Part shown: piece after piece, positions 22,195 through 39,898 of the stretch
How the letters are laid out: each line of letters begins with the position of its first letter
Position numbering within the stretch: position 1 is the stretch's first letter
NCBI GenBank assembly: GCA_021792635.1
Contig: JAJYUH010000002.1
Span: 62,001 to 126,000 of the forward strand
DNA: 64,000 nt
Direction of reading: 5' to 3'
From: Natronospirales bacterium
GTDB taxonomy: Bacteria > Pseudomonadota > Gammaproteobacteria > Natronospirales > REEB76
Notes under the pieces: generated by a model
What the model was told of the DNA's origin: nothing
What the model saw: only the letters and a program-made list of their open reading frames with translations
Database searches by the model: none
Translations under genes and position numbers: made by a program

Positions 22195-23901
22195 TTAACC
22201 GGTAAGCCCTTGCAAGCCCTCGATCAGCGGGGACAGATGCTTTTCATAATGCCGCCAGTGTGCGATTGCGCTGTGATAAATCGGTTTGCGCACCTGCACG
22301 TTGCTTGCCGTCGCGATGGCGCGATTGACGCTATGGAAGTTGAGGCAGGCAGCTTCAAATGCCAGTCCGCAGAAGTCCAGCACCTGGTGGATTTCCTTTT
22401 CCGGGTCGGCAACCACTGACTCATACTGAACATCGAAGATACGACCCGGCAGAACCGCGTGCCAATGGCGCATCAGCCGATCGTAGGTCTTATAAAACCG
22501 TCCCAGATCCTGCAAATCGAAGCTGAAGAGATTGCCGGCAGTGAAACGTCGCTGATAGCAGCTAAAACAGGTCGCTATCGGGTCGCGCCGGCAATGGATG
22601 ATTTTTGCCTTCGGAAATAACAGATGTATCACCCCGATGTACATGAAATTTTGCGGCATCTTGTCGGTGAAACGGGGGTGGCGGCGTACCAGCTCGCCGG
22701 TCAACTCCGCGTAACGCGCCGCGCCTTTGCGCAGGTCTGCAGCCACAGTGTCATCCTCGCCCGGAGCCGCATCCCCACGCGACTGCCAAGCCTCACCCAG
22801 TCCCCGGGCGACATGTGAGATATACACCAGTTCCCCACCGGCCTTGATCTGGGAATGCGCGGCCAACATCTGTTCCACTAAGGTGGTACCGGAGCGTGGC
22901 ATGCCGAGTATGAATATCGGCGACAGTTCCGAGCCGCTCCTGTTTTCAAAGCGTGCGATGAAATCGCGCGTGAACAGCGCCATGATCCGGTCGGCAGCAT
23001 CTTCCTCGGTAAACACATCATATGGCACATCTGCACGTTTGAGTTTGTTGCCCATATCCAGGAAGAGGAATGCACGGTCATAATCCCCGATATCGTCATA
23101 GGCTTTGGCCAGGGCAAATGCCGCATCGATTTTCGCATCCGGGGCTGCAGTATCCGCGTTTAGTCTGGCTTCCATCCTGGGGAGGTCTGGGTCATCTGCC
23201 GTGAATTGCTTTAATTGTGCCAGTTGACAATAGGCCGGTGCGGCTGGATCAAGGCCCAGAGCGCGCTTGTAATGGTTTACAGCGTCGTCTGCTCGCCCCA
23301 GCATCTGACAAGCGGCACCGGCAAAGACATGGGGCTGGGACAAACCAGGATCCAGGCTGAGCGCGAGTTCGTATGCGGCCAGGGCATCCGCCTGCCGGTT
23401 CCATTGCATGAGCAGCGTGCCGATGGCCCAGTACGGGAGCGGGTTCCGGCGGTGCTTGCCCGCAATGTTGCGCAGGAGTTCAAGTGCGGGTTCGAATTTA
23501 CCCTGATCAGAAAGAGCCTGCGACAAACCGAACGCATATGGCATGATGCCCGGATCGCACAGCATGGCATGGCGATAGGCATCCTCCGCCTGAGGTAAAT
23601 CACCGGCTTGGCGCAATGCATCTCCGAGACCCCGCCAGCTCATTCCCCGGGCACGGTCGCCGGGCGCCCGCACCAGTGCCCGGCGAAAAAGTGCGACAGC
23701 CTCGGCAGCCCGATAGCGATCCAGGGCCACGGAGGCGGCAAGATGCAAGACCTCATACTGATCGGTATTTTTCTGCAACAGCTCGCGTACGAGCGTATCC
23801 GCTTCTTCAAGTTTTCTGGCATCGTAACAGGCGAGCGCCTGCTGAAATTCTTTCGTGGAGCTGATGGGATCGGCGGTATCCACCGCGATTGGCTGGTTCA
23901 T
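22195..23901 (-). CDS. TPR-sulfotransferase fusion protein (copy 1)
   Basis: A 568-residue protein. The first about 320 residues are tetratricopeptide repeats, such as AEDAYRHAMLCDPGIMPYA and ALAAYELALSLDPGLSQPH. The C-terminal domain is a Sulfotransfer_3-type P-loop. The 5'-phosphosulfate loop is GMPRSGTTLVEQML, and the 3'-phosphate site is IIHCRRDPIATCFSCYQ. The family end block QVRKPIYHSAIAHWRHYEKHL includes the last conserved residues. These features match tyrosylprotein sulfotransferase-like enzymes using PAPS. No signal peptide, so presumably cytoplasmic. Its ATG overlaps the stop of the upstream SseB-like gene (ATGA), so it is translationally coupled. It is the last gene of a four-gene run. 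Confidence 0.88.
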   Translation of the reverse strand: MNQPIAVDTADPISSTKEFQQALACYDARKLEEADTLVRELLQKNTDQYEVLHLAASVALDRYRAAEAVALFRRALVRAPGDRARGMSWRGLGDALRQAGDLPQAEDAYRHAMLCDPGIMPYAFGLSQALSDQGKFEPALELLRNIAGKHRRNPLPYWAIGTLLMQWNRQADALAAYELALSLDPGLSQPHVFAGAACQMLGRADDAVNHYKRALGLDPAAPAYCQLAQLKQFTADDPDLPRMEARLNADTAAPDAKIDAAFALAKAYDDIGDYDRAFLFLDMGNKLKRADVPYDVFTEEDAADRIMALFTRDFIARFENRSGSELSPIFILGMPRSGTTLVEQMLAAHSQIKAGGELVYISHVARGLGEAWQSRGDAAPGEDDTVAADLRKGAARYAELTGELVRRHPRFTDKMPQNFMYIGVIHLLFPKAKIIHCRRDPIATCFSCYQRRFTAGNLFSFDLQDLGRFYKTYDRLMRHWHAVLPGRIFDVQYESVVADPEKEIHQVLDFCGLAFEAACLNFHSVNRAIATASNVQVRKPIYHSAIAHWRHYEKHLSPLIEGLQGLTG

Positions 23902-24344
23902 TCCGTCCTCGGCCCCCCACCGGGGTTGATGCGCCGTTCCAGGTTTTTCTCAGCGGATTCGCGCAACATGCCTGCCACTTCGGGGCTGATACGGAAATTG
24001 GGTACAGAGTTGGGATTCAGCATGATACCCGCATCCTTGGGTACGCCGAGCAGGGCCCAGGCCGCATCCACGTCCACGGGATGCTGAAACGGCCCCGCCG
24101 CGGACATGAATTCCCGCGCCAGGGCCTGGGTGCTGAATACCGCGAGCATCGGCTGCTGCGCGTTGGGGCCATCGGAAACCAGCAGCAGATTCATGCCGGC
24201 ACTCGGCAAGGTGCGTCCGTCCCACGGCTGGTCCAGGAGCACCGTGACGCGGGATTGTACCAGGGCTTTGAGGATATCTTTCTTGCTGGTGACATCTTCA
24301 CCCGCATTGCTCAGGGCTTGTTCAAGTGGATTGGGAGTTGACAT
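23898..24344 (-). CDS. SseB-like domain protein
   Basis: A 148-residue protein from the ATG at 24344 (GGAAA upstream); a longer start at 24404 is possible. It starts MSTPNPLEQALSNAG and contains an SseB N-terminal-type domain, with features such as TVLLDQPWDGRT, LAVFSTQALAREFM and GIMLNPNS. SseB-type domains occur in enhanced-serine-sensitivity proteins and diverse accessory proteins; their biochemical role is poorly known. The stop overlaps the start of TPR-sulfotransferase copy 1, tying the two together. An accessory role for the sulfotransferases is an inference from this coupling. Confidence 0.65.
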   Translation of the reverse strand: MSTPNPLEQALSNAGEDVTSKKDILKALVQSRVTVLLDQPWDGRTLPSAGMNLLLVSDGPNAQQPMLAVFSTQALAREFMSAAGPFQHPVDVDAAWALLGVPKDAGIMLNPNSVPNFRISPEVAGMLRESAEKNLERRINPGGGPRTE

Positions 24345-24410
24345 TACGATTTTCCATGAGACGGATTCAGCCGGCGATATAACGGGCTGCAAAGTATAGC
24401 CCAATCATTG

Positions 24411-26216
24411 TCATTCCTCTCCAATGATATCAAGTGCCTTGAATAAAGGGCCGAGGTGCCGGCGATAGGATCGGGCGCGACCCACAGCGCTGTGGTACAG
24501 GGGTTGCCGCACCTGGTAGGCGCTTGCAGTCGCAACCTGACGCGGGTTGGTATGGAAATTCGCACAATCGGCATGCCACTCGAGACCGCAATGGGCCACC
24601 AGTCCGCGCGCCTCAGTTTCGAAGTCGGTTATCAATTTTTCGTAGTGGACCTCGTAAATTCTGCCGGCCGGCAGAAGCTGGTGCCAATAGGTCATGCAGC
24701 GCTGGTATTCACGGTAGTATTCACCGAGTTCGGTCAGATCATACGCATACTCCTGTCCGGGCTGGAATTGGGTAAAGAAGCAGGAAACACAGGTATCCAG
24801 CGGATCACGTCTGCAGTGGATGATGACGGCATGCGGAAACAGCACATGCAGCAGCCCCAGAAGGGCAAAATTGGCCGGACGCTTGTCGGTAACTCTTGTT
24901 GCGTGGGGATTCAGAGTATGCAGTCTGTCGAGACACTGTTGCGCGAGTTCGCGTAATTCTTCGTCGGCCAGGCGGCCGAGTGCCAGGAGCTCGTCCCGAT
25001 CCGACAAGAAAGTGCCGTACTGCTTTCGCAACCCCTCGTGTATCAATTGCAATTCGCCACCGCCGTGTACCTCCGGATGGCTGGCCAGGATCTGTTCCAC
25101 GAGGCTGGTGCCGGAGCGCGGCATGCCGACGATAAAGATCGGCAAACGGTCAGCCAATCCCGCCGCTGCATGCCGGTGCTGGAATTCCCCGCCGAAAGTA
25201 CTCTTTGCGAGGTCGAAATTCGCGCGTTGCGCCGCCGTGGAGTAGTGCACCTGCTGTCGTTGCAGGCGATTACCCTGCAGGAAGTAGCGAAAGGCAGCGT
25301 CGTAATGCTTCTGCTGCTGGTGCAGCTTGCCCAGCGCAAAATATACGGCTACACCGTCAGCCAGATTCGACCAACGTGCGTCATCCGCCATGCGCTGCAG
25401 CGCCTTCACTTCCGGGTCATCGCATTTTAGGGCGGATATTCCCGCAAGCGCGGTGTAAGCCGCATAGAGGTCGGGTTGAAGCGCGAGCGCTCTTCTCAGC
25501 CGAGCGGCCGCCTCCCGGAAACGACCGAGTGCCACGCAGGCCTGCCCCATCTGGAAATGCGCATGTGCCGATTCGGGGGTATGGCGTATGGCCGCGTCCA
25601 GCATTTGCAGGCCCCGCTCCGCAAGCCCGCGCTCGACAAGCACGCAACCTAATTGGCTGAGCACCCGCGCATCATCGGGTGCGAATTGCCGCGCCTTTTC
25701 ATAAGCATCAATGGCAGCATCCAATTGACCCAGGTTCCACAGAGTGTCACCGAGTGCCAGCCAAGCGGAGACGAGACCGGGTGCCAGTTTCACGGCCCGT
25801 TCCCAGCAGACGACCGCTTGTGCATGCAGTTGCATGCGTTCCAGGGCCAGCGCAAGGTGATGCCAGGCATCCGCATAACCGGGCTGGACGGCGATGGCTC
25901 GTTGCAGGATATCCACGGCCTTCTGCAATGCCCCCTGTTCCTGCAGTACACCACCCAGATTGTTCAGGAAGCCGGCATTATTCGGACTGATAGCCAGCGA
26001 TCGTTCCATGAGTTCGACGGCGAGAGTGGGGCGGCCAGTCTGGTGGGCGAGCAGACCCAGAAAGTGGTTCGCATCGGCATGATCGGGCGCCATTGCAAGG
26101 ACTTCCCGGTACAAGCGCTCAGCATCCTGGTAGCGCTCCTGCTGTTGCAGCCTTACGGCCTGCGCCATCTTGAGGGAAAGAGTATCCGGTTTCCCGCCGG
26201 AGCCTTGCATGGGCAC
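24411..26216 (-). CDS. TPR-sulfotransferase fusion protein (copy 2)
   Basis: A 601-residue protein with about nine TPR units in residues 15-330 (DAERLYREVLAMAPDHADA, AVDILQRAIAVQPGYADAWH, and others). A C-terminal PAPS-type sulfotransferase domain follows. The P-loop is GMPRSGTSLVEQILASHPE, followed by GGGELQ. The 3'-phosphate motif is IIHCRRDPLDTCVSCFF, and the family end block is QVRQPLYHSAVGRARSYRRHL. It is a close architectural match to copies 1 and 3 but diverged in sequence, so the three are paralogues, not recent duplicates. The C-terminal catalytic half is better conserved among the three than the TPR half, which may select different partners. Confidence 0.88.
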   Translation of the reverse strand: MPMQGSGGKPDTLSLKMAQAVRLQQQERYQDAERLYREVLAMAPDHADANHFLGLLAHQTGRPTLAVELMERSLAISPNNAGFLNNLGGVLQEQGALQKAVDILQRAIAVQPGYADAWHHLALALERMQLHAQAVVCWERAVKLAPGLVSAWLALGDTLWNLGQLDAAIDAYEKARQFAPDDARVLSQLGCVLVERGLAERGLQMLDAAIRHTPESAHAHFQMGQACVALGRFREAAARLRRALALQPDLYAAYTALAGISALKCDDPEVKALQRMADDARWSNLADGVAVYFALGKLHQQQKHYDAAFRYFLQGNRLQRQQVHYSTAAQRANFDLAKSTFGGEFQHRHAAAGLADRLPIFIVGMPRSGTSLVEQILASHPEVHGGGELQLIHEGLRKQYGTFLSDRDELLALGRLADEELRELAQQCLDRLHTLNPHATRVTDKRPANFALLGLLHVLFPHAVIIHCRRDPLDTCVSCFFTQFQPGQEYAYDLTELGEYYREYQRCMTYWHQLLPAGRIYEVHYEKLITDFETEARGLVAHCGLEWHADCANFHTNPRQVATASAYQVRQPLYHSAVGRARSYRRHLGPLFKALDIIGEE

Positions 26217-26235
26217 GCGTCTTAACTCCTGACGA

Positions 26236-27849
26236 TCACGAAGGGTTGCCCGCCGGGATACTCTCCATCAGCGCCTGGCGCAAGGGTTGCAGATACTCCG
26301 CATAGTGATGCCAGCGGCCGACCGAATCACGATAGATGGGTTGCCGTGCCTGCCACAGGCTGGCGGTGGAAATGCTGCCCGCGTGTTTATGCGGCTCAAG
26401 ACAGTCCGTATGCCATTCCAGCCCGATGTCAGCCACCAAGTCACGGGTTACCCTTTCCGGCTCCCTCACCAATTCCTCGTAGCGGATATCGTGAATGGGA
26501 ACCGGCAGCACGTTGCGCCAGTGTGTCATGAGCGCGGTGTATTGCTTATAAAAGAAAGCGATATCCTCCAGCGCATAGGCATAACTATTGCGCGGATGGG
26601 CGAAATGCTGGAAATAGATGGACAAACAGGTATCCAGGGGATCACGCACGCAGTGCAGGATGGGGGCTTCGGGAAATAATGCGGCGATCAACCCCAGGTG
26701 GAGGAAATTGAGTGGATTTTTATCTACCACGCGGGTGGCAGCCCGCGCCTCGGCGGGCCATTGGGCGCGGAATTCCACCGCCAGCGTCGCGGCCAAGCGG
26801 TTATCCAGCCTGGCCATGCAGGCCGGGTAGGGTAGGCCCGTTCGTGAGGCCAGTTGTTGCACAAGTCCGTCCACCAACTCGGTCTCACCCAGGCCGATAG
26901 CCTGAGGATGACTTGCCAGAATTCGTTCCACCAGGGTGGTACCGCTGCGCAGCATGCCTACGATAAACACCGGCACGGGAATTGTCGCCTGCGTGGCGGG
27001 ATGGTTTTGGAACAACTGCGGGGAAAACATCTCTTTGACTGAACTTACATAATCCACCAGCGCCTGCCGGTCGAAGCTGTTCCGTTGGCGATGGAGGGCG
27101 TTGGCGCGACGGAAATGCTCGAACGCCTGCGCATAGGACCCCAAGTCGTCATACATCTTGCCGAGACTGAAGTGCAGGCATTTGCGGGTTTCTTCGCTCA
27201 AGTGCTGGTTGCTCAGGGTGGCTTCGAAGCGCTGAATCAACGGGGTGTCCGGTCGGCCCAGATGGCGGGTATGCGCTACCAGCAGGTAAGCGGCAGCGAT
27301 ACCCGCGTCCTCTTCGATGGCCGCGAGGAATGCCCGCTCGGCATCCCCGAAACGCCCGAGCTTCTGATAGCTGAGCCCCAGCTTGAGGCGGAGCTGGGCG
27401 TTATGAGGTTGGTGCTGCACACAGCGCGCATAGAGCGAGGCTGCCTGTGCGTGGCAGCCCATATCGGCAAGCAGGCCGGCTACTTGCGTGTGCAGGGGCA
27501 GATCAGCGGGGCGGGCGGTGATCAGAGCCAGGAGTGCCGCCGCCGCCGCATCCCGTTTCCCCTGGCTGTGGTAGAGAAAGGCCAGGCTGATGTATGCCTC
27601 GCCGAGGGAGGCGTCGTGGGTAATGGCTGCTGTCAGTGCCTGTTCGGCCGCCGCATCTTCTCCGCTACGCCGCAGGCAGTTGCCGAGCTGGTAGTGAGCC
27701 GAAGCCAGGGAGTCGTCGTGTTCCAGAGCCCGGAGGAACGCGGCGCGGGCAGCGGGTTCATCGCCGTTATCCAGGTGGGCCATGCCTGCCTGATAGCAGC
27801 GGCCGGCAAGCTCAGGCTCGGCACAGGGAGAGTCTTGCGGGATGGCCAT
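26236..27849 (-). CDS. TPR-sulfotransferase fusion protein (copy 3)
   Basis: A 537-residue protein, first gene of the leftward run and divergent from the TonB receptor. TPR units fill residues 15-250 (AGMAHLDNGDEPAARAAFL, SLASAHYQLGNCLRRSGED, and others). The sulfotransferase domain has P-loop GMLRSGTTLVERILASHPQ, with Leu replacing the usual Pro, then ETELVDGL, and the 3'-phosphate motif ILHCVRDPLDTCLSIYFQ. The end block is QARQPIYRDSVGRWHHYAEYL. It ends 19 bp before copy 2 starts, consistent with one transcript. PAPS-dependent sulfation of tyrosine or another acceptor is the family role; the substrate is unknown. Confidence 0.87.
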   Translation of the reverse strand: MAIPQDSPCAEPELAGRCYQAGMAHLDNGDEPAARAAFLRALEHDDSLASAHYQLGNCLRRSGEDAAAEQALTAAITHDASLGEAYISLAFLYHSQGKRDAAAAALLALITARPADLPLHTQVAGLLADMGCHAQAASLYARCVQHQPHNAQLRLKLGLSYQKLGRFGDAERAFLAAIEEDAGIAAAYLLVAHTRHLGRPDTPLIQRFEATLSNQHLSEETRKCLHFSLGKMYDDLGSYAQAFEHFRRANALHRQRNSFDRQALVDYVSSVKEMFSPQLFQNHPATQATIPVPVFIVGMLRSGTTLVERILASHPQAIGLGETELVDGLVQQLASRTGLPYPACMARLDNRLAATLAVEFRAQWPAEARAATRVVDKNPLNFLHLGLIAALFPEAPILHCVRDPLDTCLSIYFQHFAHPRNSYAYALEDIAFFYKQYTALMTHWRNVLPVPIHDIRYEELVREPERVTRDLVADIGLEWHTDCLEPHKHAGSISTASLWQARQPIYRDSVGRWHHYAEYLQPLRQALMESIPAGNPS

Positions 27850-28244
27850 GTTTGCGAGTCAGGGTAACGGAGTGGGTTCGGGAGGTAGCAAGTTAGTGTA
27901 GCCGAAAGCCCGGATTCCACCGACATACCCATGGGATTTCAGATACTTGCAACATAAGCAGACTGCATGTTGCTGATAGACGACAAATTAGCAGGCCAGA
28001 CTGTAAACGCTGATACCGCAGGCAATTCTGATGACTTGCGGACAGGAAATATGTCATGATTTTACAACAAACCCCTTCCAATCTGTTTTTCCTGTGCTAA
28101 ACTTCAACAGTCTAGAAGGGGCGGGTCAGGCTTACTTCCCGCCGCCGATTAAGACTGAACCAGACATTTGGGCCTCGGCGACGTGGCACTCACGTCCATG
28201 GGGTGGGCAAGTTCCATACTCTTAAAAACATGTAGGAGTCTCGG
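27850..28244. promoter_or_regulatory. Divergent regulatory gap between sulfotransferase run and receptor
   Basis: A 395-bp gene-free gap with both flanking operons transcribed outwards, so promoters for each should lie here. An imperfect hairpin (GCGGG at 28121-28125 with CCCGC at 28138-28142) lies about 100 bp before the receptor ATG. A 13-base string at 28104-28116 recurs inverted at 38372-38384 before the Sel1-hydroxylase gene. TAGGAG at 28232-28237 is the receptor ribosome site. I cannot assign -35/-10 boxes with confidence. Confidence 0.5.
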
Positions 28245-31200
28245 ATGAACAGCAACCTAATCAGCAAAGCCGTCCGCTGTGCGCTGATGGCGGGCGCGGC
28301 CACGGCGCTGGCGGCGCCGGCGGTATTCGCGCAGGATCCCCACAGCAGCAGCAATCAGAACCAGAACAGCAACACTGCGCAACTGGGCAAGATTGAGGTG
28401 GTGGGTTCGCGCATTTTGCGGTCCAGCGTAGAGACGGCCCAGCCGGTGACCATCATCACCGCCAAGCAGTTGAAAGAGACCGGGCTCACCTCCATTGGTG
28501 ACATTCTGCAGCAGATTTCCTCGGCCGGCTCGGCGCTGAACACGATGTTCAACAACGGCGGTGACGGCGAGACTTTCATTGACCTGCGCAATCTGGGTGC
28601 AGCCCGGGTGCTGGTGCTGGTCAACGGCCGGCGCTGGATGAACGATCTGGGCGGTCCGGTGGACCTGAACACCATTCCGGTGTCGATCATTGACCACATC
28701 GAGATTCTGCAGGACGGCGCTTCGGCCATTTACGGCTCGGACGCCATTGCCGGGGTGATCAACATCATCACCATCAAGAACTTCAACGGGGCCGAGGCGC
28801 ATGCCTACTTGGGCATGTACGACGGTCACGGGGTCGGCGGCGGCTGGGACGGCAAGACCCAGGAATACGACTTCACCCTGGGCAACAGCGGCAACCGCGG
28901 CGGCGTGCTGATGAACGTGTCCTATGTGAACCAGCAGCCCATCTGGGCGGGACAACGCACCATCTCCAAGGAACCCATCATCGGCGGTGGGCAGGCCTCG
29001 GGCAGTTCCGCCACCCTCGCGGGGCGTTTCTTCATTTTCCCGGCGGCCACTCCCGGCAAGTGTCCGGGTACGGCCACGCCGACCCCGACGAGCGGCAGTT
29101 GCGACCTGTCGCTGACCAGCTACCCGACGAACACGCCGACGCTGGGCAATTTCACCAACTTCACCAATGCCGACCGCTACAACTATGCCCCGCAGAACTA
29201 TCTGGTGACGCCCAATGAACGCACCAGCCTGTATGTGCAGGGGCATTACCAACTGCTGGATAATCTGACCTTCTCCACCGACGTCCTGTACAACCGGCGC
29301 GTCTCCCAGCAGATCCTGGCGCCTTCGCCGCTGTTCATCGGCGCGTTCGGCTCGAGCTTCTCCAACTCGCTGCCGATCGGTATCGGGGCGAGCAACCCCT
29401 TCAACCCGTTCGGCGTCAATCTGGTCCCGAACTACGGGAGCGCGTGCGTGGCGGCGGGCACCTGCGATGTGCTCGGCTTTGCCGGCCGCCGGCCGGTGGA
29501 AGCCGGTGACCGCGTGTTCAACCAGAACCGCGACAGTTACCAGATCCACATGGGGCTCAAGGGCTACTTCAACACCCTGGGCAGCGAGTGGGACTGGGAC
29601 GTGGGCTATAACTACGGCACCAACTACGAGACCGACGTCACGAGCGGCCTGTTCAACACCCAGCGGATGCAGTACGCCCTCAACAACTGCACCGCCGGTG
29701 GCGGGGCGGTTTCCGGCAGCAACCCGTTATTGCCGGGCTGCACCCCCCTGAACTTCTTCGGCGGGGCGGGCAGCATCACCCCCGCGATGCTGCAATATAT
29801 CCTGTTCGAGGCGCATGACGTTTTTGTCACCAACATGCGGGACTATACCGGCAACATCACCGGCGACCTGTTCAACCTGCCGGCGGGACCGCTGGCCATG
29901 GCCGCGGGCTATGAGTATCTGGAACAGGACGGGTTCTTTCATCCGGACGCGCTGACTTCCGAGGGCAACACCTCGGGCAACGTGACCCAGCCGACGAATG
30001 GCCGCGAGGTCACCAAGGCCGAGTACGTGGAGTTCGACGTGCCGCTGGTGGCGGATGCGCCGTTCATGAAGAGCCTGAGCCTGCACCTGGCCAACCGCTG
30101 GTCGCAGTTCAACTGGATCGGCGGCAATCCGGGCACGGCGCTGTCCACGATCACGCACTTTGACCATGCCTCCACGGGCCTCGCGGCCCTGCGCTGGCAG
30201 GTCACGGACACCCTGTTGCTGCGTGCTTCCTGGTCCCAGGGCTTCCGTATCCCGTCCATCAGTTCGTTCTTCTTCGGCAACAGTGATAACTTCCCGTCCC
30301 TGCAGGATCCGTGCGTGATCAGCAAAACCAATCCCGTGCGAGCTCCGTTCTGCGGTCCCGGTCCCAACGTTCAGCCGAATGGCCAGATTCACACCACCGT
30401 GGGCGGCAATCCGAACCTGACGCCGGAGAAGTCCATCTCGCAGACGGTGGGTTTTGTGTACAGCCCCGACTGGCTGCCGGGCTTTGACTTCAGCGCGGAT
30501 TACTACAAGATCAACCTGGTCAATGCCATCAGCAGCATACCGGCCCAGACCATCCTGGACGGGTGCTATTTCGGGAATAACCCCAACTACTGCAAGCTGA
30601 TCAGCCGCGGTACAAACGGTCCCTTCGGGTCCGGAGCCATCACCAATATCTTCGACGGCAACACCAACGTGGGTGGCATCAAGACCGAGGGCGTGGACAT
30701 CTCGACCCACTACAAGTTCCCGTCCACCGCGGTCGGCGACTTCATGCTGGGCCTCAACTGGACGTTCACGAAGGAGTATGTGGTTACCGAGCCCTTTGGA
30801 TCACAGGGTCTGAATGCCAGCCTGGAAGAGGCCGGTACCACCGGTACGACGAGCGGTGCGTTCAGCGGCATTCCGAAGCAGCGTGCCCACCTTGCGCTGA
30901 ACTGGAACTATGGCAACTGGTCGGCGTTGTGGGCGGTGCAGTACATCGGCGGCATGACCGAGGACTGCCAGTCGGTGGGGTTGTACTTCACCAAGAGTAA
31001 TCCGCTGTCGAATTACTGCCCGACCAACGGAACGTTCCCGTTCGCGAGCGGCACGGTGCCGTTGAACCACATCGGCGCGACGTTCTATCATGACGTACAG
31101 GCGACCTATCACATGGATAGCTGGAACACCGACTTCACCTTCGGTATCCGCAATCTGTTTGACAAGGTGCCGCCCATCGCCATGTCGGCGTTTGCCAACA

Positions 31201-31331: not shown

Positions 31332-31711
31332 GTGCGCCCGGCACGGGCGCACTCTTGTGGGTGCAAGTCCCACCGCGAGCTGGTCACGGCGAGCGAAGCG
31401 AAGCGCAACTGCGGAAGGGCAACCGACCGTGGGGAGGAAGCGTGGAGCGAAATTGCGACCTGATGGACAAGAACCGGATAGAAGGCACCGCCGAGCAGGG
31501 CGAGCGGGCAGAAAACCGCAAAGCTCTCGTGATCAAGGCTCAGGCGGTGTAAATCCGGCGGGTGTGCAGTGACGGAGTGCGTTCTTACCCGGGGAGATCC
31601 CGCCTTGCGGCTGAAAGGCCGACGTGGCGACACGGAGCGGGAAGTCAGCAGAGGCCGTAGTAGCCGCAAGGGGAAGGGCCGAACGAGAAGGAGCGTTTCA
31701 TCGGCGGATTG

Positions 31712-33073
31712 ATGACGAGCGGAAGGCATCAGATGCCCGCCTCGGCGGGGCGGGGTGCGGGTCGGCAGGGTGAAGCCCGGCCGAGAGCACCCAGCGATGA
31801 ACTGAACGTCCCGCGATCCGAAGCGAAGGGCGCAGGGTCGGCATTGCTTAGGCAAATGCTGACGAGGGAGAACATGCAGCGCGCTTGGAAGCGCGTGAAG
31901 GCGAACAAGGGAGCCGCAGGGGTCGATGGGCTGGACATTGACCAGACCGCCGAGCATCTGAAGCAGGCATGGCCTGGGATCAGGGAGGGGTTGTTGAGCG
32001 GTACGTACCGGCCCGGTCCGGTATGCCGTGTGGGCATCCCGAAACCGGACGGCAGCGAGCGGGAGCTGGGTATCCCGACCGTGACCGACCGACTGATCCA
32101 GCAGGCGCTGCTACAGGTGCTACAACCCCTACTCGATCCGACGTTCAGCGAGCACAGTCACGGCTTCCGTCCCGGACGCCGTGCCCACGACGCGATACTG
32201 GAGGCACAGCGCTATGTGCAGGCCGGATTCCGTGTGGTGGTGGATGTGGACTTGGCCAAATTCTTTGACCAAGTCAACAAGGACATCCTCATCGACCGTC
32301 TTCGGAAGCGTATCGCGGACGCCGGAGTGATCCGGCTGGTCCGGGCGTATCTGAACAGCGGGATCATGGTGGATGGTGTGGTGCAGGAGCGGTATCAGGG
32401 CACGCCGCAGGGCGGGCCCCTATCGCCGCTGCTGGCCAACGTGCTACTGGACGAGGTGGATCGGGAACTGGAAAGGCGCGGCCATCGCTTTGTGCGTTAC
32501 GCCGACGACTGCAACGTGTACGTGCGCAGTCCCCGGGCGGGCGAACGGGTGATGGAGCTGCTGAGGGACCTGTACGGGAAGCTGCGCTTGCAGATCAACG
32601 AGTCGAAAAGCGCAGTGACGAGCGCGTTTGGCCGCAAGTTCCTGGGTTACGCGCTCTGGGCGGCCCCGGGAGGCGAGGTCAAGCGCGCCGTGTCCGGCAA
32701 GGCCCTGGCGAGGTTCCGGCAGAACGTGCGCTGGCGGACCCGCCGCTCTGGCGGGTGCAGCATGGCGCAGGTGATCGAACGGTTACGACCCTACGTGCTT
32801 GGTTGGAAAGCCTACTTCGGCCTGGCGCAAACCCCACGCATCTGGCGCGAGTTGGATGAGTGGATGCGCCATCGGCTGCGGGCTATACAGCTCAAGCAAT
32901 GGCGGCGTGGTCCGACGATCTTCCGGGAGCTGCGGGCGCTGGGGGCATCCGTCGAGGTGGCGGCCATGGCGGCAGCCAGTCATCGCCGCTGGTGGTACTA
33001 CAGTCGCTTGGCCCTCAACCGCGTCCTGACCATCGGCTACTTCGATCGCCTCGGCATGCCTCGCCTCACCTGA
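31712..33073 (+). CDS. ltrA: Group II intron reverse transcriptase/maturase
   Basis: A 453-residue protein (ATG at 31712; a TTG at 31709 also possible). Reverse-transcriptase blocks are visible: AAGVDGLD, GIPKPDGSERELGIPTV, FSEHSHGFRPGRRAHDA, VVDVDLAKFFDQVN, QGTPQGGPLSPLLAN, and the catalytic FVRYADDCNVYV. The group II maturase domain follows (RFRQNVRWRTRR, VLGWKAYFGLAQ). There is no HNH endonuclease domain, as in class C introns, which target single-stranded terminator DNA. It splices and mobilises its own intron. All catalytic residues are present, so the protein is likely active. Confidence 0.96.
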   Translation: MTSGRHQMPASAGRGAGRQGEARPRAPSDELNVPRSEAKGAGSALLRQMLTRENMQRAWKRVKANKGAAGVDGLDIDQTAEHLKQAWPGIREGLLSGTYRPGPVCRVGIPKPDGSERELGIPTVTDRLIQQALLQVLQPLLDPTFSEHSHGFRPGRRAHDAILEAQRYVQAGFRVVVDVDLAKFFDQVNKDILIDRLRKRIADAGVIRLVRAYLNSGIMVDGVVQERYQGTPQGGPLSPLLANVLLDEVDRELERRGHRFVRYADDCNVYVRSPRAGERVMELLRDLYGKLRLQINESKSAVTSAFGRKFLGYALWAAPGGEVKRAVSGKALARFRQNVRWRTRRSGGCSMAQVIERLRPYVLGWKAYFGLAQTPRIWRELDEWMRHRLRAIQLKQWRRGPTIFRELRALGASVEVAAMAAASHRRWWYYSRLALNRVLTIGYFDRLGMPRLT

Positions 33074-33119: not shown

Positions 33120-33165
33120 GTGGGAGGGGCGCGGTCTATACTGACCGCCCCCTATCCCGATTGTG

Positions 33166-33480: not shown

Positions 33481-33498
33481 GCACGTCCCGTGGTAGGT

Positions 33499-33523: not shown

Positions 33524-33550
33524 TCTCTTCTCTCCTGATTCCACAATATT

Positions 33551-34255
33551 TCACGCTTGGCGGAGTTTGAGGGAAGGCTCATCCATAACTGTGCCGGCTT
33601 CCCGCACCCAGGCATTGAAGGCCACGGTGATGCGTTCCCGGTGACCGTAATAGGGGGCGACTTCGTGCAGCAGGTAGGAGGGAAACAGTAATAACTGTCC
33701 CGGGGCAAGCTGATAGCTCAGGTCGCCGAATGCGAAGGGAGGCGCCAGATGGGCATTGCCCGGGTCCAGATACATGCTGGCGGTACCGCGGGCTTCGAGG
33801 AAGCGCAAAGCGCCGTTATTGGGGTACTGCGTTACCGGCTCACCCGGATCCACGCAATACACGCCGGACCAGGAGGCCATGGGATGGTTGTGCTGGGCGG
33901 TGTAGCCCTGATGCCGGGTCAGATGGTACCAACTGTGCTGGTATATTCGTAATCTTGCCATCTCTTCTGGATTGTAGCCGTTCAATTGCGCCATCACATA
34001 GCCGAGTGTCTGCAGACAGAATTGCGTGAGCGTTTGTATTTCCGGCTCAGGATTCAAGAACAGATCAAAACCGCTTTCGTAGACCTCTACCTTGATGACC
34101 GGGGTGGGAGCGGAACTGCGCCTGCGACTGGTATCCTGCTCCCATTGAAGGAAGAGTTGCCGCAGGCGCTGATTCAGTTCCCCGCAGTCCGGCATTACGG
34201 TACTGATGATGGGCGAAGCAAAGGCGTGGGTAATATTCAAGGCGGGAGGATTCAT
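33551..34255 (-). CDS. Putative 2OG-Fe(II) oxygenase (TIGR02466-like)
   Basis: About 234 residues from the ATG at 34255 (AGGT upstream); the frame extends to 34309. The pattern YTAQHNHPMASWSGVYCV followed by GALRFLEARG and then GQLLLFPSYLLHEVAPY, RITVAFNAWV matches the TIGR02466 family of putative Fe(II)/2-oxoglutarate oxygenases. The His cluster and a distal His plus Arg presumably bind iron and co-substrate. The metal motif here reads HNH rather than the usual HxD, as is normal for this family. It is probably cytoplasmic. Its target is unknown; proximity to three other hydroxylases suggests a shared modification programme. It is divergent from the next oxygenase gene. Confidence 0.8.
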   Translation of the reverse strand: MNPPALNITHAFASPIISTVMPDCGELNQRLRQLFLQWEQDTSRRRSSAPTPVIKVEVYESGFDLFLNPEPEIQTLTQFCLQTLGYVMAQLNGYNPEEMARLRIYQHSWYHLTRHQGYTAQHNHPMASWSGVYCVDPGEPVTQYPNNGALRFLEARGTASMYLDPGNAHLAPPFAFGDLSYQLAPGQLLLFPSYLLHEVAPYYGHRERITVAFNAWVREAGTVMDEPSLKLRQA

Positions 34256-34359
34256 GGTTGACCTATTCTGCTTGCCAGGCCGGCCGATTCGGCCCATATT
34301 AAAAGGCAATCACGCTGCTGACAATTGTCAGGGCAAAGGGCGAGTGTGGAAAAGTAAAC

Positions 34360-34917
34360 ATGCAAGCAGTGCGGTGCTTCTCCATCGAAGGACGGGAAAT
34401 CCGTGTTTATGATGCCCTGTTGCAGGCGCAGGAAATCCGCAGCCTGACCACGGCTTTTGAGGGGGGTGCCTTTACGCGCAGCGAATATGCCCGTCCCGAA
34501 ACCGCCGTCTTCCGCCATTGGGCGCTGAATATCCCGCTGGAAACCGCCGCACAACTTCCGGTTTATCAGCCGACCCTGGCGGCGGCCGGGGAGTTCGCCG
34601 GACATTCCAATTACAAGATTTACCGCTGCTACTGCAATCATGCCGCCTACGGCGATATGCTGTTTACGCATACGGATTGCCTGCCTGGTAAACGGGAATT
34701 GACCGCCTTGTGGTTTATTGCCCCGGAATGGAACGTGGAATGGGGCGGCGAGACGCTGTTTTTCAATTCCGCCATGGATGCCGAGATGGCCGTCAGCCCC
34801 CGGCCGGGGCGGCTGGTGGTATTCGACGGCACCCTCACCCATGTGGGACGCCCGCCGAACCGCATTTGCTATGCACCCCGTTATACGCTGGCCTTCAAGC
34901 TGGAGCCCAAACCGTAA
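34360..34917 (+). CDS. Small 2OG-Fe(II) oxygenase
   Basis: A 185-residue protein, short for the prolyl-hydroxylase superfamily but with the double-stranded beta-helix core intact. HTDC supplies the HxD metal pair, WGGETLFFN is the typical core strand, and FDGTLTHVGRPP supplies the distal His. The final RYTLAFKLEP has the Arg that would bind 2-oxoglutarate. No signal peptide. The enzymes couple decarboxylation of 2-oxoglutarate to hydroxylation of a protein or small molecule. It is divergent from the TIGR02466-like gene and convergent with the TPR-hydroxylase gene. Confidence 0.85.
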   Translation: MQAVRCFSIEGREIRVYDALLQAQEIRSLTTAFEGGAFTRSEYARPETAVFRHWALNIPLETAAQLPVYQPTLAAAGEFAGHSNYKIYRCYCNHAAYGDMLFTHTDCLPGKRELTALWFIAPEWNVEWGGETLFFNSAMDAEMAVSPRPGRLVVFDGTLTHVGRPPNRICYAPRYTLAFKLEPKP

Positions 34918-34948
34918 TTTTTCCGGCCGCCCGTGCCCCGGTCTCGGG

Positions 34949-36292
34949 TCAGGTACTGCCGGGCAGGAAGTCAGGGCCGTATTCCTGATCAAAGTCACGT
35001 ATGACGCCGAGTACCGCCGCCACCGCTTGCCGCTCCGCAGCGGAAAGCCGGGGATTCCATGCGTCCATGATCAGCACCGCCCGCATCTCGCCGCTGTTGT
35101 TCCAAGCCTCGTGCCGGAAGCTATCGTCGAAAATAAGGCACTGGCCCTCGGTCCAGGTACGGGTTTCGTTGCCCGCACGGATAGCACATTTCTCCGGTAC
35201 GATCAGAGGCAGATGAACCGCAAGCTTGTAATTTGCAAGCCCGAAATGCGGTGGAATCTTCGTACCGGGCTTCAGTATGGAAAAAAACACTTCAGGCGAC
35301 TGGGCCGGGGTGCGTGCGAGCGGCAATTTTTCAACTATGGAAGCTGTGATTGGACATTGTTCACAATGGGGTTCGATGCGGGTACCTGCCTTGTATAAGT
35401 GGAATGAACTCCAATGCAGAGAGTAATTCAGCTCCTTCCACTGGGCTGTATCCGGAGCGTTAATCTGCACATAGGGCTGCAGTTCCTCAGGCTGCCGCAG
35501 AACCGCCAGTAACTCCGTGCGGATCTGCGGGGTAGCGGCCTCCAGTTCCTCAATCCAGTCGAAATCCGTGCGTTCAAAGAATGCCTGCGGTTGCAGGTCC
35601 GGAAAGTGCAGAAAGGCGGGGCGCTGCATGGCGTGCTCATAACGAGGTGGCATTGTGCCAAGATAGGCGCAAACGAAGTGCTCCACCCGATCGAGTTCCG
35701 TCGCATCATGCTGAGTGCGCAATGTGGAAAGCGCCCGATTGAGCATCGCAATTTTTGCCCGGATGATAACATCCGCGGAATGTGAGATAAGGTCACGGAT
35801 GTGCGGCAGTGTCTGTTGCGAATGTCGGAGTTCCTGAAAATCAGTCGCTTGCGTCCAGGCACGCAGATAAGCATGAATCGCCTCGCGATGTCGGCCAAGC
35901 AGCTCAAGAACGGACCCTTTGTGCAGCAGGGCCATGGGATAGAGCGGCTTGATCGCCAGGGCGCGGTCCAGGGCAGACAGCGCGAGATCATATTCACCGA
36001 TTGTCTTGTACACTAAACCGATATTCTGGTAAGGCATGGCACGTTCCGGATTGGCATGAACCGATCGTTCCAGGAGCTCCAGACTGCGATGAGCGTCTCC
36101 TTGTTCCATGGCGCGCTTTGCCAGGAAATTGAGCGCTGCCACATGGTGGGGCGCGACCTCCAATATTTTTTGATAGAGCTTGGCAGCTTCTTCGCTTTGG
36201 CCGCGCAGTGCCATCGCCTTGGCGCTTTCGCTTAATGTTCTTATTTGCCACGCGATATCAGGGGGATTATTTGGCGGAGTTTGTGTTGACAC
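34949..36292 (-). CDS. TPR - aspartyl/asparaginyl beta-hydroxylase fusion
   Basis: About 447 residues from a GTG at 36292, chosen because the frame upstream is not protein-like; the start is uncertain. TPR units fill residues 5-140 (AAKLYQKILEVAPHHVAA, RSLELLERSVHANPERA, YDLALSALDRALAIKP). The C-terminal domain resembles the aspartyl/asparaginyl beta-hydroxylase family, with TRIEPHCEQCP, ILKPGTKIPPHFGLANYKLAVHLPL, EGQCLIFDDSFRHEAWN and RAVLIMDAW. The conserved His residues and Arg that coordinate iron and 2-oxoglutarate are visible. The TPR-hydroxylase architecture mirrors the TPR-sulfotransferases of the same locus. Known relatives hydroxylate Asp/Asn side chains of proteins. Confidence 0.85.
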   Translation of the reverse strand: MSTQTPPNNPPDIAWQIRTLSESAKAMALRGQSEEAAKLYQKILEVAPHHVAALNFLAKRAMEQGDAHRSLELLERSVHANPERAMPYQNIGLVYKTIGEYDLALSALDRALAIKPLYPMALLHKGSVLELLGRHREAIHAYLRAWTQATDFQELRHSQQTLPHIRDLISHSADVIIRAKIAMLNRALSTLRTQHDATELDRVEHFVCAYLGTMPPRYEHAMQRPAFLHFPDLQPQAFFERTDFDWIEELEAATPQIRTELLAVLRQPEELQPYVQINAPDTAQWKELNYSLHWSSFHLYKAGTRIEPHCEQCPITASIVEKLPLARTPAQSPEVFFSILKPGTKIPPHFGLANYKLAVHLPLIVPEKCAIRAGNETRTWTEGQCLIFDDSFRHEAWNNSGEMRAVLIMDAWNPRLSAAERQAVAAVLGVIRDFDQEYGPDFLPGST

Positions 36293-36521
36293 GGTATCTA
36301 TATCCAACAGAATGTGCGAACTATAACACTTACATCTTACTTCCAGGCAGGCGGCTATGCTACATTGCCCTTGGAGTCCATCGTTGCATGGAAACATTTT
36401 CCAAAACAAGACCGAAGGCATGTTGACCCTCAATCGGGATGGTCTTAATGAGCAACGGCAGTACCGCCTGTTTCACTATGGTGCGATGCGGGTAAGCGGG
36501 GTCTTGCGGTGAGTGAGTGAA

Positions 36522-37571
36522 ATGCCAAATCCAGAAGAATTGGCGGCGCATCCGGATTACTGCCTGAACGAGGTGGACCTGGATCGTCTGGAGTATGGAT
36601 TCCTAAAACTTGATAGCGGCGCATATCGGCGTTCGGCTTTTATGGATCAGCGGATTCATTCTGAAAAGCGGGAATCCGTGCGTGTTCCTCTGGGTGTGAT
36701 GGATAAATTGGTTGCCGACATCCAGGCTACCGGCAAGCCGATACCGATAAATTATATTTTTCATACGGCATTTTGCTGTTCAACCCTCATTTCCCGCTGC
36801 CTGGATATTGAAGGGGTCTGCTGTGCGTTGCGTGAACCGTCCGTGTTGATGCAGATGGCAAATTACAAACGCAGTGGAAATCATCACATGCCTGATGGCA
36901 ATCGCTGGCGTGTTACGCTGAATACCGTGCTGTTCTTGCTGGCGAAGACTGCAATCGGTAATGAAGCAGTGCTTATCAAGCCGACCAATGCCGCCAACAA
37001 TCTCTCGGGAGAAATCATACGCGATCCGCGAACCCATGGCGTGCTGCTGCTGTATTCGAGCCTGGAACAATTCCTGATTTCCATCATAAAGAAAGGTGAG
37101 GAAGGCCGTGCTTTTGTGCGCAAGTTATTCAATGTCATCATGACAGATTCGCAGCGTACCCAGGCATTGTCTCCGCGATCTTTGGCGCAATTAACCGATT
37201 TGCAGGTGGCGGCATTTGTTTGGTATTTGCAGATGGATAATTATCTTGAGTTGATTGGCGGTTTTCCGGGCGCCCGTGTCAGGACACTGGATTGCGATGC
37301 GTTCCTCAAAGAGCCTGCCGGCATGCTGGAAAAACTTTGTGCATTATTCGGTATCACCGTGAAGGCGGGCATACTGGAAGAAATTGTCGCGGGACCGGTC
37401 TTCAGGAAATATTCAAAAAATAATGCCCATGACTATGATTCCGCGGTCCGGGAGGCGGAATACGGGAAGATAGCCCGTGAATACAAAGTGACTCTCTCGG
37501 GCATTCTGGCGTGGAGTGAGCATATTCGTCCGCAAGGCCCGGTGCGCCTGCCATTATCCCAGGCTTTGTGA
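36522..37571 (+). CDS. P-loop sulfotransferase-like protein
   Basis: About 349 residues from the ATG at 36522; a GTG at 36513 is also possible. The segment IFHTAFCCSTLISRCLD resembles the 5'-phosphosulfate loop of divergent sulfotransferase-like P-loop proteins, and VLLLYSSLEQFLISIIKKGEE lies where the 3'-phosphate site is expected. No TPRs. It could act on the same substrate as the TPR-sulfotransferases or be an inactive relative. The gene and its neighbours (36.2-38.3 kb) are less GC-rich than the core genome, hinting at transfer. Its end overlaps the opposite-strand hydroxylase gene by 18 bp. Confidence 0.65.
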   Translation: MPNPEELAAHPDYCLNEVDLDRLEYGFLKLDSGAYRRSAFMDQRIHSEKRESVRVPLGVMDKLVADIQATGKPIPINYIFHTAFCCSTLISRCLDIEGVCCALREPSVLMQMANYKRSGNHHMPDGNRWRVTLNTVLFLLAKTAIGNEAVLIKPTNAANNLSGEIIRDPRTHGVLLLYSSLEQFLISIIKKGEEGRAFVRKLFNVIMTDSQRTQALSPRSLAQLTDLQVAAFVWYLQMDNYLELIGGFPGARVRTLDCDAFLKEPAGMLEKLCALFGITVKAGILEEIVAGPVFRKYSKNNAHDYDSAVREAEYGKIAREYKVTLSGILAWSEHIRPQGPVRLPLSQAL

Positions 37572-38294
37572 AATCGGATTAGTCTGCGGAGGCCGGCTCA
37601 TACCCCAACCCGTTATCGCGTAACGGGCGCGGGTTGCGAACGGCGACACATAGCTGACGTGGTGCCACATGGGCACCTGGAAGAGTGACAATGAATTAAA
37701 TGCGGGAAAAAAAGTATCGGTGACCCTGCCATCATCGTCCATAAACTGCAGCAGCCCTCCCCAGTCTGCCTGCCATCCCTTGGTCAGATTGATGACGTAA
37801 GCGATCTCCCGGTATTGATCAGCCACATGGTCATTGTGCCTTTTCAGAAAATGGCCCGGGATGTAGCATGTGGCTTGTGCATCTGCCTTGATAATGTTGG
37901 GAATACCCGTGACATTTCGCATGAGTTCCAGGAATGGTGATGCATTGATGAATTCCAGCATTTCATGCAATACCAGTCCCGGATCGCGTTTTTCTTTGTA
38001 GGCCGTTACCATCATGTAGCTGTTGTATATGAACTGGAACTTTTCCAGTGCCCTGGCTTGCACTCTCTCATTCAGGTTCAACCAGTCAGCCGGAGTGAAC
38101 GCGGCGACTTTATCGGCTGTCAGGATGACGGATTGTTCACCATCTATATAGGCCACACCCCATGGAACTTCGTGCTGCAGACATTGGTATAGCCTTTCAG
38201 CGGCTTCCGGGAGCAGGACATCATGGATCTGTATACGCCGTCTATGCCTGAATTCTTGCGACAGCCTGGTAACATCAAGAGCCGGATTTAACAT
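37554..38294 (-). CDS. Prolyl-hydroxylase-like 2OG-Fe(II) oxygenase
   Basis: A 246-residue protein starting MLNPALDVTRLSQEF. The core resembles the 2OG-FeII_Oxy_4/Tpa1-type prolyl hydroxylases. FLKRHNDHVADQYREIAYVI carries the HxD-type motif (H-N-D), WGGLLQFMDDDG is the typical core turn, and LFQVPMWHHVSYV provides the distal His. RYAITGWG includes the Arg for 2-oxoglutarate. Tpa1-type enzymes hydroxylate prolyl residues of proteins. It is the third hydroxylase of the locus and converges with the sulfotransferase-like gene, overlapping its last 18 bp. Confidence 0.82.
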   Translation of the reverse strand: MLNPALDVTRLSQEFRHRRRIQIHDVLLPEAAERLYQCLQHEVPWGVAYIDGEQSVILTADKVAAFTPADWLNLNERVQARALEKFQFIYNSYMMVTAYKEKRDPGLVLHEMLEFINASPFLELMRNVTGIPNIIKADAQATCYIPGHFLKRHNDHVADQYREIAYVINLTKGWQADWGGLLQFMDDDGRVTDTFFPAFNSLSLFQVPMWHHVSYVSPFATRARYAITGWGMSRPPQTNPISQSLG

Positions 38295-38566
38295 GCGCTA
38301 TCAATGACCAATGGTATGTGCCGTAGCGGATGACAAGAGTATATATCCTCATTGCCATCGGTTGCAGTTAGTCTAGACTGTTGACGTTCATCTGGCTCTG
38401 AACGCCCATCCGGGCGTATGTGGACCCCGACCGGACGGGCATTCGATTTATGGACGGAAACCCCGGAGTGCCATTGGGATGGTAATCAACAGTTTTCCAT
38501 CGTTTGTGTAGTGTCGTAAGCCGATAATTGGTGCCAGACGGGTTCGCATGAGAGGATAATTTGGAT

Positions 38567-39898
38567 ATGGCCAGTACGCTGGACATGAATGCCTTGTCGG
38601 TAGCGGCTCGGACCGGGCAGCCGCAGGCTCAATACCGTCTCGGCGCACTGCATTTTTCCAGAGGCGAGATCAAGCCTGCCATGGATTGGTTGGAGCGGGC
38701 GGCGGAGCAGGGTGCTGAGGAAGCCCAGAATCTGTTGGGCATCATCTATCTGAATGGTATCGGGATACCGTGTCAGCCGCAGAAAGCCCTTGAACTGTTT
38801 GGCGCGGCGGCGCAGCGGGATCTCAAGGAAGCTCATTTTAATCTGGCGGGCCTGCTTTTCAGCGGTGTCGTTATCCGGGACAGTGATGCGGAAGCAATCA
38901 AGCATCTGCTGCGGGCCGCGGAACTGCGGCATCGCCCTGCGTTGCGGGTATTGGGGTATCTTTACAGTCTTGCAAGGGACACCGCCTTGCAGGAGCTTGC
39001 CACCCTGTGTTTCACCCATGCCGCTCTTTTGGGTGACGCGCATGGCGAGTACATGCTGGGAATGCGCTATATAAATGGTGTGGGCATCGACGCCAATCCC
39101 GATGCAGGGGCGTACTGGCTGTTCCGCGCCGCCGACAGGCAACTGTACTGCGCGGGACGGCATCTTGCAGCATTGAGAATGGATATGGGGGAAGCGCGCC
39201 TGCAACAGATGGCACAACTTCATGTACCGGATGTAAACAACTTGGCCGCCCGTACAATTGAATTGCGGGATCCGGGCGTAATCGCCGCGCCGCCACCGCA
39301 GTCGAAACAATACCCCGGCTTGGTTTGCGAATACCCGGGCATTCTTGAAGAGCATCTCTGCGATTATCTGGTGAATCTCGCCGCGCCCAATCTGCGGCTC
39401 TCCGGAGTGATAGACCCGGCTACGGGGAAGCCTCTGAAGACAGCGCTGCGAACCAGCAGTTCGATGAACTTTCAGTTATCCATGTATGACATGGCGGTGA
39501 GTATCATCTGTCGCCGCATGGCCGGGCTGTCCGGTACGGCGGCAAATCATGCGGAACCCATTTCGGTGCTGCGCTATCTGCCGGGCGAGGAATACCAACC
39601 GCATTATGATCATTTTGCCGTTGATGCATGCGGTGCGCCCATGGTGCAGGACGACAATGGCCAGCGGACCGTGACGGTGTTTGTATATTTGAACACCGTG
39701 GATGCCGGCGGTGAAACCGACTTTCCGCGCCTCGCTCTCCGGGTGCAGCCACAGAAGGGTAAGGCGGTGGCCTTCCTGAATTGCGATACGACCGGAAAAC
39801 CCAATCCCGATACCCTGCATGCCGGCTTGCCGGTTATGCGCGGGGAGAAGTGGCTTGTAACCCTGTGGTTTCGTGAGCGACCCTTTCACTGGGTGTAG
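38567..39898 (+). CDS. Sel1-repeat / prolyl 4-hydroxylase fusion
   Basis: A 443-residue protein; the ATG at 38567 lies 10 bp after AGAGGA (a TTG at 38561 is also possible). Sel1-type helical repeats fill residues 8-200 (AQYRLGALHFSRGEIKPAMD, AQNLLGIIYLNGIGIP, GEYMLGMRYINGVGID). The C-terminal P4Hc domain has EEYQPHYDHF (HxD), VFVYLNTVDAGGETDFPRL, KGKAVAFLNC and DTLHAGLPVMRGEKW with the distal His and Lys. All active-site residues are present. The Sel1 part could recruit a protein substrate, as TPRs may in the neighbouring fusions. It is followed by the sucA operon and is the right edge of the modification locus. Confidence 0.88.
   Translation: MASTLDMNALSVAARTGQPQAQYRLGALHFSRGEIKPAMDWLERAAEQGAEEAQNLLGIIYLNGIGIPCQPQKALELFGAAAQRDLKEAHFNLAGLLFSGVVIRDSDAEAIKHLLRAAELRHRPALRVLGYLYSLARDTALQELATLCFTHAALLGDAHGEYMLGMRYINGVGIDANPDAGAYWLFRAADRQLYCAGRHLAALRMDMGEARLQQMAQLHVPDVNNLAARTIELRDPGVIAAPPPQSKQYPGLVCEYPGILEEHLCDYLVNLAAPNLRLSGVIDPATGKPLKTALRTSSSMNFQLSMYDMAVSIICRRMAGLSGTAANHAEPISVLRYLPGEEYQPHYDHFAVDACGAPMVQDDNGQRTVTVFVYLNTVDAGGETDFPRLALRVQPQKGKAVAFLNCDTTGKPNPDTLHAGLPVMRGEKWLVTLWFRERPFHWV

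Follow-up and report, generated by a model that had tools for sequence, protein, structure and literature searches.

A TonB receptor locus with TPR-fused sulfotransferases and 2-oxoglutarate oxygenases as a candidate module for modifying exported outer-membrane proteins

Sulfation and hydroxylation of proteins are, to our knowledge, hardly known in bacteria. Animal TPSTs are Golgi membrane enzymes that act on acidic tyrosine sites, and substrates of AspH are EGF-like domains in the secretory pathway. FlmG, a TPR-glycosyltransferase of Caulobacter, places pseudaminic acid on flagellins, and its TPR domain is sufficient to bind these proteins in the cytoplasm (PMC7591256). RaxST of Xanthomonas is reported to sulfate the small precursor peptide RaxX from the same 5-kb cluster, a case of a bacterial sulfotransferase clustered with an exported product as in the locus described here (PMC6637879). 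That locus occupies positions 22195-39898 of a 64,000-nucleotide stretch of DNA from a Natronospirales bacterium, henceforth referred to as the window. Besides a TonB-dependent receptor (TBDR) and an SseB-domain gene, it encodes three TPR-sulfotransferases, a fourth protein with a sulfotransferase fold and five 2-oxoglutarate (2OG) oxygenases. An earlier note on this DNA had listed the same sulfotransferases, SseB-like gene and 1007-residue receptor, all of which are present. The oxygenases it named are present as well, but they number five (oxA-oxE) rather than four, and a group II intron between the receptor and the oxygenases had been overlooked.

The three TPR-sulfotransferases are encoded on the minus strand and were identified by PF13469 matches combined with TPR repeats: ST1 (22195..23901, 9e-51), ST2 (24411..26216, 5e-45, with many TPRs) and ST3 (26236..27849, 2e-43). 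The nearest PDB structure to the sulfotransferase domain of ST1 is human TPST2 (1e-14). Alignment to TPST2 demonstrated that the TPST catalytic Arg/Glu/Lys set (R336, E357, K414) is present in these enzymes; Arg336 of the 5'-PSB, Glu357 at the TPST2 Glu99 position and Lys414 of ST1 are invariant across 11 TPR-sulfotransferases. TPST1/2 are the nearest solved structures to the catalytic domain and share its key residues, but the enzymes described here are TPR-fused bacterial proteins, and the neighboring receptor is without an acidic-tyrosine pattern. The TPR domain lies N-terminal to the catalytic transferase domain, as in FlmG-type enzymes. FlmG has the same arrangement and acts in the cytoplasm on proteins exported later; it is, however, a glycosyltransferase acting on flagellins, whereas here sulfotransferase, AspH and P4H-type domains with putative client binding are found beside a TonB receptor.

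The fourth protein, STlike (36513..37571, plus strand), contains an FHxxFCCSTL P-loop-like motif and has no Pfam match. Its AlphaFold model (pLDDT 86) was matched by Foldseek to the CurM sulfotransferase and human TPST2 with probability 1.0 and E ~1e-4, and the gene is kept in congeners. The SseB-domain gene (23898..24404, minus strand; PF07179, E=8e-6) sits between ST1 and ST2, likewise in congeners G002, G005, G007 and G008. An S8-peptidase-like protein with a GlyGly-CTERM-like tail adjoins ST1 in the window and in G005, G007 and G008. A PAPS synthase and the families for APS kinase, ATP sulfurylase and PAPS reductase were not detected in the source genome, at least 26 kb of whose polysaccharide locus reads as N. 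A bifunctional PAPS synthase is present in congeners G002, G004, G007 and G010, and in G002, G007 and G010 it is kept in the matching polysaccharide locus.

Two of the oxygenases carry the TPR or Sel1 fusions described in the earlier note. The first, oxC (34949..36433, minus strand), combines TPRs at residues 71-201 with an aspartyl/asparaginyl beta-hydroxylase-type domain (PF05118, 2e-49; 167.6 bits against a curated cut-off of 22.6) and is the sole PF05118 gene in the source genome. It matched human AspH in the PDB at 4e-37. The residues H396-F-G, H407, H441 and R451 correspond to a two-His iron site without an acid plus 2OG-binding His/Arg, following the residue numbering and spacing of AspH, and these His/Arg residues (H396-x-G, H407, H441, R451) are invariant in 11 homologs. 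The likeness to AspH includes the TPR-oxygenase architecture, the structural match and the two-His pattern; the difference is that no EGF domain was identified by Pfam in any gene of the locus, the receptor included. The second, oxE (38561..39898, plus strand), joins Sel1 repeats (2e-20) to a prolyl-4-hydroxylase-like domain (PF13640, 1e-15) whose HYD...H...K site (HxD...H...K; H348, D350, H420, K430) is invariant at all four positions.

The remaining three oxygenases are oxA, oxB and oxD. PF13759/TIGR02466-like oxA (33551..34309, minus strand; PF13759, 8e-19) is kept in congeners at 70-79% identity, with alignments beginning at residue 18-19; its true start is probably near 34255. An HTD...H motif is found in oxB (34360..34917, plus strand; PF13640, 4e-10), which matched the NF052475 FlmC-family model at 1e-34 and 120 bits, under the cut-off of 240. 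The prolyl-hydroxylase-like oxD (37554..38294, minus strand; PF13661, 2e-20, also PF13640; Ofd1) contains HND...H...R and gave weak PDB matches only (OGFOD1, 1e-5; 4iw3, 2e-5). Across the oxygenases and TPR-sulfotransferases, residues likely to bind metal or take part in catalysis are conserved.

The receptor, TBDR-A (28245..31268, plus strand), is a 1007-aa protein with plug (PF07715, 5e-23) and barrel (PF00593, 1e-29) domains. The divergent intergenic/promoter region between ST3 and the receptor (27850..28244) is conserved in congeners, and blastn/tblastn against the congener loci revealed no conserved small ORF within it. Only tRNA and promoter-level conservation was observed across the locus gaps, and a precursor peptide encoded there was rejected; in this respect the locus differs from RaxST/RaxX. 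Only 1 of 40 tyrosine contexts in the receptor, the one protein examined for this feature, is net-acidic, so a TPST-like acidic-Tyr pattern is absent. Comparison of sulfotransferase-linked with unlinked TBDRs gave no clear receptor site specific to the former, and the residues that separate the two groups follow phylogeny. The locus is adjoined by tRNA-Ala/Arg, and mobile genes occur elsewhere in the window.

Between the tRNAs and sucA, congeners largely keep the gene order, with most identities at 40-80%, although gene content varies. Of the 64 TPR-sulfotransferases in 12 genus and family genomes, 48 have a TBDR homolog no more than 10 kb away; simple arithmetic gives about 2 expected by chance, since the TBDR footprint is ~3.7% of the sequence. 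Given this count and the conserved gene order, the linkage is not due to chance. All six strong PF13469 genes of the source genome (G000) fall within two TBDR loci. The second of these, C10, holds TBDR-B (51% identical to TBDR-A) and three TPR-sulfotransferases without oxygenases. Duplicated TBDR-A copies have sulfotransferase neighbors of their own, an STlike gene at C29 of the source genome, where the copy is 94% identical, and an ST2-like gene at C46 of G008. The TBDR is the only exported product that all linked loci in the genus share. The linkage occurs throughout the genus and also in Rhodanobacter, Peristeroidobacter, Nevskia, Arenicella and Caulobacter relatives, the TBDRs in these named loci having been detected with a family-biased HMM. 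The condition that would have refuted the earlier note, absence of co-occurrence beyond chance, did not hold for TBDRs and TPR-sulfotransferases, but their linkage is not universal: outside the family a TBDR is adjacent in 6 of 20 sampled TPR-sulfotransferase loci, five of the six in one genome, against 2 of 20 random 20-kb control stretches.

Congener loci also encode a single polypeptide in which a sulfotransferase domain is joined to an AspH-type oxygenase domain, as determined by Pfam and alignment; it is missing from the window and from G007. This fusion is widespread in other bacteria, often beside TBDR/TPR-sulfotransferase genes or exported beta-helix proteins. Peristeroidobacter agariperforans and Rhodanobacter sp. 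C05/C01 carry the fusion together with a TBDR, TPR-sulfotransferases and a TPR-AspH protein. At 75 fusion loci outside the genus, a TPR-sulfotransferase was found in 24, a TBDR in 23 and both in 15 (odds ratio 9, p=9e-5). For fusions longer than 900 aa, the neighboring gene encodes a secreted-looking beta-helix/cadherin-type protein in 8 of 12 loci, some with an IPTL-CTERM motif. The nearest PDB structures are L-proline cis-4-hydroxylase for the N-domain (1e-9) and CurM for the sulfotransferase domain, and the structure model of the fusion (pLDDT 70, pTM 0.50) is too uncertain for active-site geometry. No description of a TBDR-TPR-sulfotransferase or AspH-sulfotransferase system was found in the open literature, and the fusion is apparently uncharacterised so far.

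We tentatively favor, as plausible though short of probable, a receptor-linked module that hydroxylates and O-sulfates an exported outer-membrane protein, most likely the co-encoded TBDR, before Sec export. ST1-3, STlike and oxA-oxE would act in the cytoplasm, presumably with PAPS as donor, and the TPR or Sel1 repeats on several of them would dock the client, which would then be exported by Sec. Plain inspection of the enzyme sequences showed no apparent export signals. The PDB neighbors of the locus enzymes (TPST1/2, human AspH, OGFOD1) are protein modifiers, and helical repeats on enzymes of the sulfotransferase, AspH and P4H classes, together with the precedent of FlmG (PMC7591256), support the selection of protein clients proposed in the earlier note. 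That note's broader proposal, modification of the receptor, an exported peptide or an imported ligand, gains partial support from the linkage and from the hydroxylase-sulfotransferase fusions in relatives, but not from the gaps, where no precursor-peptide ORF is conserved. Because AspH-type and sulfotransferase domains share one polypeptide beside the same receptor in congeners, at least one branch may be two-step on one substrate, a hydroxyl being installed and then sulfated, or two nearby side chains may be modified. The specific version, in which a 2OG oxygenase hydroxylates a side chain (e.g. Asp/Asn or Pro) of outer-membrane receptors or surface proteins and the sulfotransferase, fused in relatives, sulfates the new hydroxyl to a sulfo-oxy residue, is improbable; we know of no instance of such a residue in proteins. 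Counting against the module are the lack of oxygenases at C10, the lack of the fusion in the window and G007, the absent acidic-Tyr pattern, the dependence of TBDR residue differences on phylogeny, the patchy linkage outside the family and the non-detection of PAPS-synthesis families in the source genome outside the at least 26 kb that read as N. If true, receptor modification could alter which ligands are bound, how phages and bacteriocins recognize the receptor, and how it is turned over. With a conserved TonB receptor locus encoding TPR-docked sulfotransferases and hydroxylases, and with a widespread fusion, outer-membrane protein modification would become open to direct test. The recurrence of the pairing in many bacteria, in some of them with a hydroxylase and a sulfotransferase in one protein, suggests a so far undescribed decoration of exported proteins.

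It is possible, if doubtful, that another surface component is modified, such as a different exported protein (e.g. the S8-like one), a lipid or a glycan, with the receptor linked for co-regulation only. The S8-like protein does adjoin ST1 in four genomes, and in other bacteria the fusion adjoins beta-helix surface proteins rather than TBDRs; however, no S8 gene was detected next to ST1 in G002, C10 has none, and none accompanies the duplicated TBDRs that keep their sulfotransferase neighbors. A lipid substrate is suggested by the membership of oxC in the OlsC/LpxO superfamily, but a lipid hydroxylase assignment was rejected, as the scores are far under the NCBIfam cut-offs (OlsC, 112 vs 450 bits; LpxO, 48 vs 500 bits) and oxC shares its residue pattern with AspH and carries TPRs.

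Synthesis or tailoring of a small molecule or short peptide, for instance a nutrient or siderophore-like ligand that either is secreted and returns through the receptor or is taken up through it and then processed, appears unlikely. TBDRs do import ligands, small molecules are substrates of PF13469 and PF05118 relatives, and the fusion domains lie near L-proline cis-4-hydroxylase and CurM, which acts in polyketide synthesis. Against this, the locus ORFs include no NRPS/PKS, exporter or precursor-peptide gene, the gaps hold no conserved ORF, C10 has sulfotransferases only, and the TPR/Sel1 repeats found on three classes of enzyme are more in keeping with protein clients. That the genes have no joint function and merely gathered as common TPR and oxygenase genes in an accessory region by the tRNAs, as the adjoining tRNA genes, internal intron, mobile genes and variable content (fusion, ST4 and small AspH are missing here) might suggest, is very unlikely and largely refuted by the conserved tRNA-sucA synteny and the re-creation of the TBDR-sulfotransferase pairing at independent loci and taxa.

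An anti-phage defence reading was also rejected, as PADLOC gave only generic 2OG/PrimPol cross-matches. The group II intron with reverse transcriptase (31413..33073, plus strand; Rfam RF02001/RF01998; RVT_1 and GIIM) consists of RNA domains at 31413-31679 and an RT/maturase ORF at 31709-33073. It is absent at the corresponding point of congener loci and is an insertion that does not belong to the module.

The window (C19:62001-126000) belongs to a genome of 2.71 Mb in 30 contigs, and the locus is bounded within it by tRNA-Arg (22037-22113) and sucA (40104). Between tRNA-Arg and the 1007-aa TonB-dependent receptor TBDR-A, the three TPR-sulfotransferase genes and the SseB-domain gene lie on the minus strand in the order ST3-ST2-SseB-ST1. 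TBDR-A runs divergently from these genes and is followed by a group II intron with RT/maturase (31413-33073), the oxygenase genes oxA, oxB and oxC, the sulfotransferase-like gene STlike, oxD and oxE. The gene list of the earlier note was otherwise correct, except that it counted four oxygenases instead of five and did not mention the intron and its RT, which are not present in congener loci. The gene beside ST1 (19333-21582), kept in several congeners, encodes a PKD protein that resembles S8 peptidases and ends in a GlyGly-CTERM-like tail. The locus holds 3/4 of the PF13640 (2OG oxygenase) genes in the genome and its sole PF05118 (AspH) gene; Plug genes number nine genome-wide. The window's left end carries a TrwC/MobF relaxase-helicase (489-2972) and an IS110-family transposase (4345-5391), likely a mobile-element remnant.

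Arg336 (5'-PSB), Glu357 and Lys414 are common to 11 aligned TPR-sulfotransferases, and alignment with human TPST2 matches the Glu to the catalytic Glu99. STlike has no Pfam match; its structure model (pLDDT 86) matches the sulfotransferases CurM and TPST2 with a Foldseek probability of 1.0. The TPR-AspH protein oxC retains the two-His AspH arrangement (H396-x-G, H407, H441, R451). HxD sites are found in oxB (HTD/H161), oxD (H153-x-D/H211/R224) and oxE (H348-x-D/H420/K430), and oxA carries an HxH motif of PF13759 type.

The order S8-like protein-ST1-SseB-ST2-ST3, then TBDR-A-oxA-oxB-[TPR-ST4-AspH:ST fusion-small AspH]-oxC-STlike-oxD-oxE-sucA, recurs within the genus and family with some loss or rearrangement; the bracketed trio is missing from the window and from G007. 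The genome has a further locus of this kind (C10:31127-39459), also found in congeners, with the receptor TBDR-B and three TPR-sulfotransferases but no oxygenases. In genus and family genomes, 48/64 TPR-sulfotransferases have a receptor homolog within 10 kb, and several of the remainder lie at contig ends, most clearly so at G007:C11. In other families a receptor is directly adjacent in 6/20 sampled loci, five of the six in one genome, compared with any receptor in 2/20 random 20-kb stretches. The association is therefore strong within the family, and in other families it recurs patchily. The receptor HMM applied to named loci is biased toward the subfamily of TBDR-A. Elsewhere in the genome, a receptor 94% identical to TBDR-A is followed by an STlike paralog (C29:59010-62018, L031), a recent duplication of a receptor beside a sulfotransferase-fold gene.

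PF05118 and PF13469 (sulfotransferase) matches occur within one frame in 7 genomes. Such single-protein fusions are encoded at L015:5785-7869, L016:4265-6121, L017:2898-4757, L020:3223-5067, L021:3905-5962 and L022:7361-9292. Alignment of six fusions gave a 610-aa protein keeping HxD...H...R and PRSGSTLL motifs, and Pfam verified both domains in 3/3 tested. The fusion, apparently uncharacterised in the open-access literature, is widespread in Proteobacteria, with matches also in cyanobacterial, acidobacterial and other MAGs; a GTDB scan returned at least 476 encoding stretches, some of which may be single-domain relatives, and the 80 loci retained from these (L034-L113) are mostly full-length. 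At the 75 retained loci outside the genus, TPR-sulfotransferases were present in 24, receptors in 23 and both in 15 (odds ratio 9, p=9e-5, with related genomes not independent). Receptor, TPR-sulfotransferase, TPR-AspH and fusion occur together in Peristeroidobacter (L075), Rhodanobacter (L100, L102, L110) and two MAGs, one from Chromatiales (L063) and one gammaproteobacterial (L082); some of these loci have an additional small AspH. Many other fusions have housekeeping-gene surroundings.

The fusion architecture suggests that one substrate may undergo both hydroxylation and sulfation; as the fusion is missing from the window, this two-step reading applies directly to relatives only. The favoured interpretation is that the receptor would be hydroxylated and sulfated before export by TPR-docked cytoplasmic enzymes, because the closest solved relatives of the locus enzymes (TPST, AspH, OGFOD1) act on proteins, the recurrent neighbour is exported, and FlmG provides a precedent. 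FlmG is a cytoplasmic TPR-docked enzyme that modifies protein before export, and its TPR domain alone binds flagellins (PMC7591256). We infer each of step order, modified residue and client, and no candidate modified site emerged from the receptor sequences examined.

No PAPS synthesis genes were found in the readable sequence of this genome, whose polysaccharide locus reads as N over at least 26 kb. A bifunctional ATP sulfurylase/APS kinase is encoded in the corresponding surface-polysaccharide locus of G002, G007 and G010 (L196, L197, L198). Neither G002 nor G004 yielded a PF01507 (PAPS reductase family) protein, which suggests that PAPS there serves sulfation, not assimilation.

Fusions longer than 900 aa define a second genomic context. 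A beta-helix, Chlam_PMP, cadherin or Calx-beta neighbour is present at 8/12 such loci (L053, L045, L052, L057, L068, L070, L077, L092), two of the eight being close relatives, and several of these surface proteins carry an IPTL-CTERM motif. One tested long fusion (L053:10001-13030) has a C-terminal TIGR03032 domain, with similar C-termini in others, and some proteins in these loci start with an RQQRRA-type basic motif.
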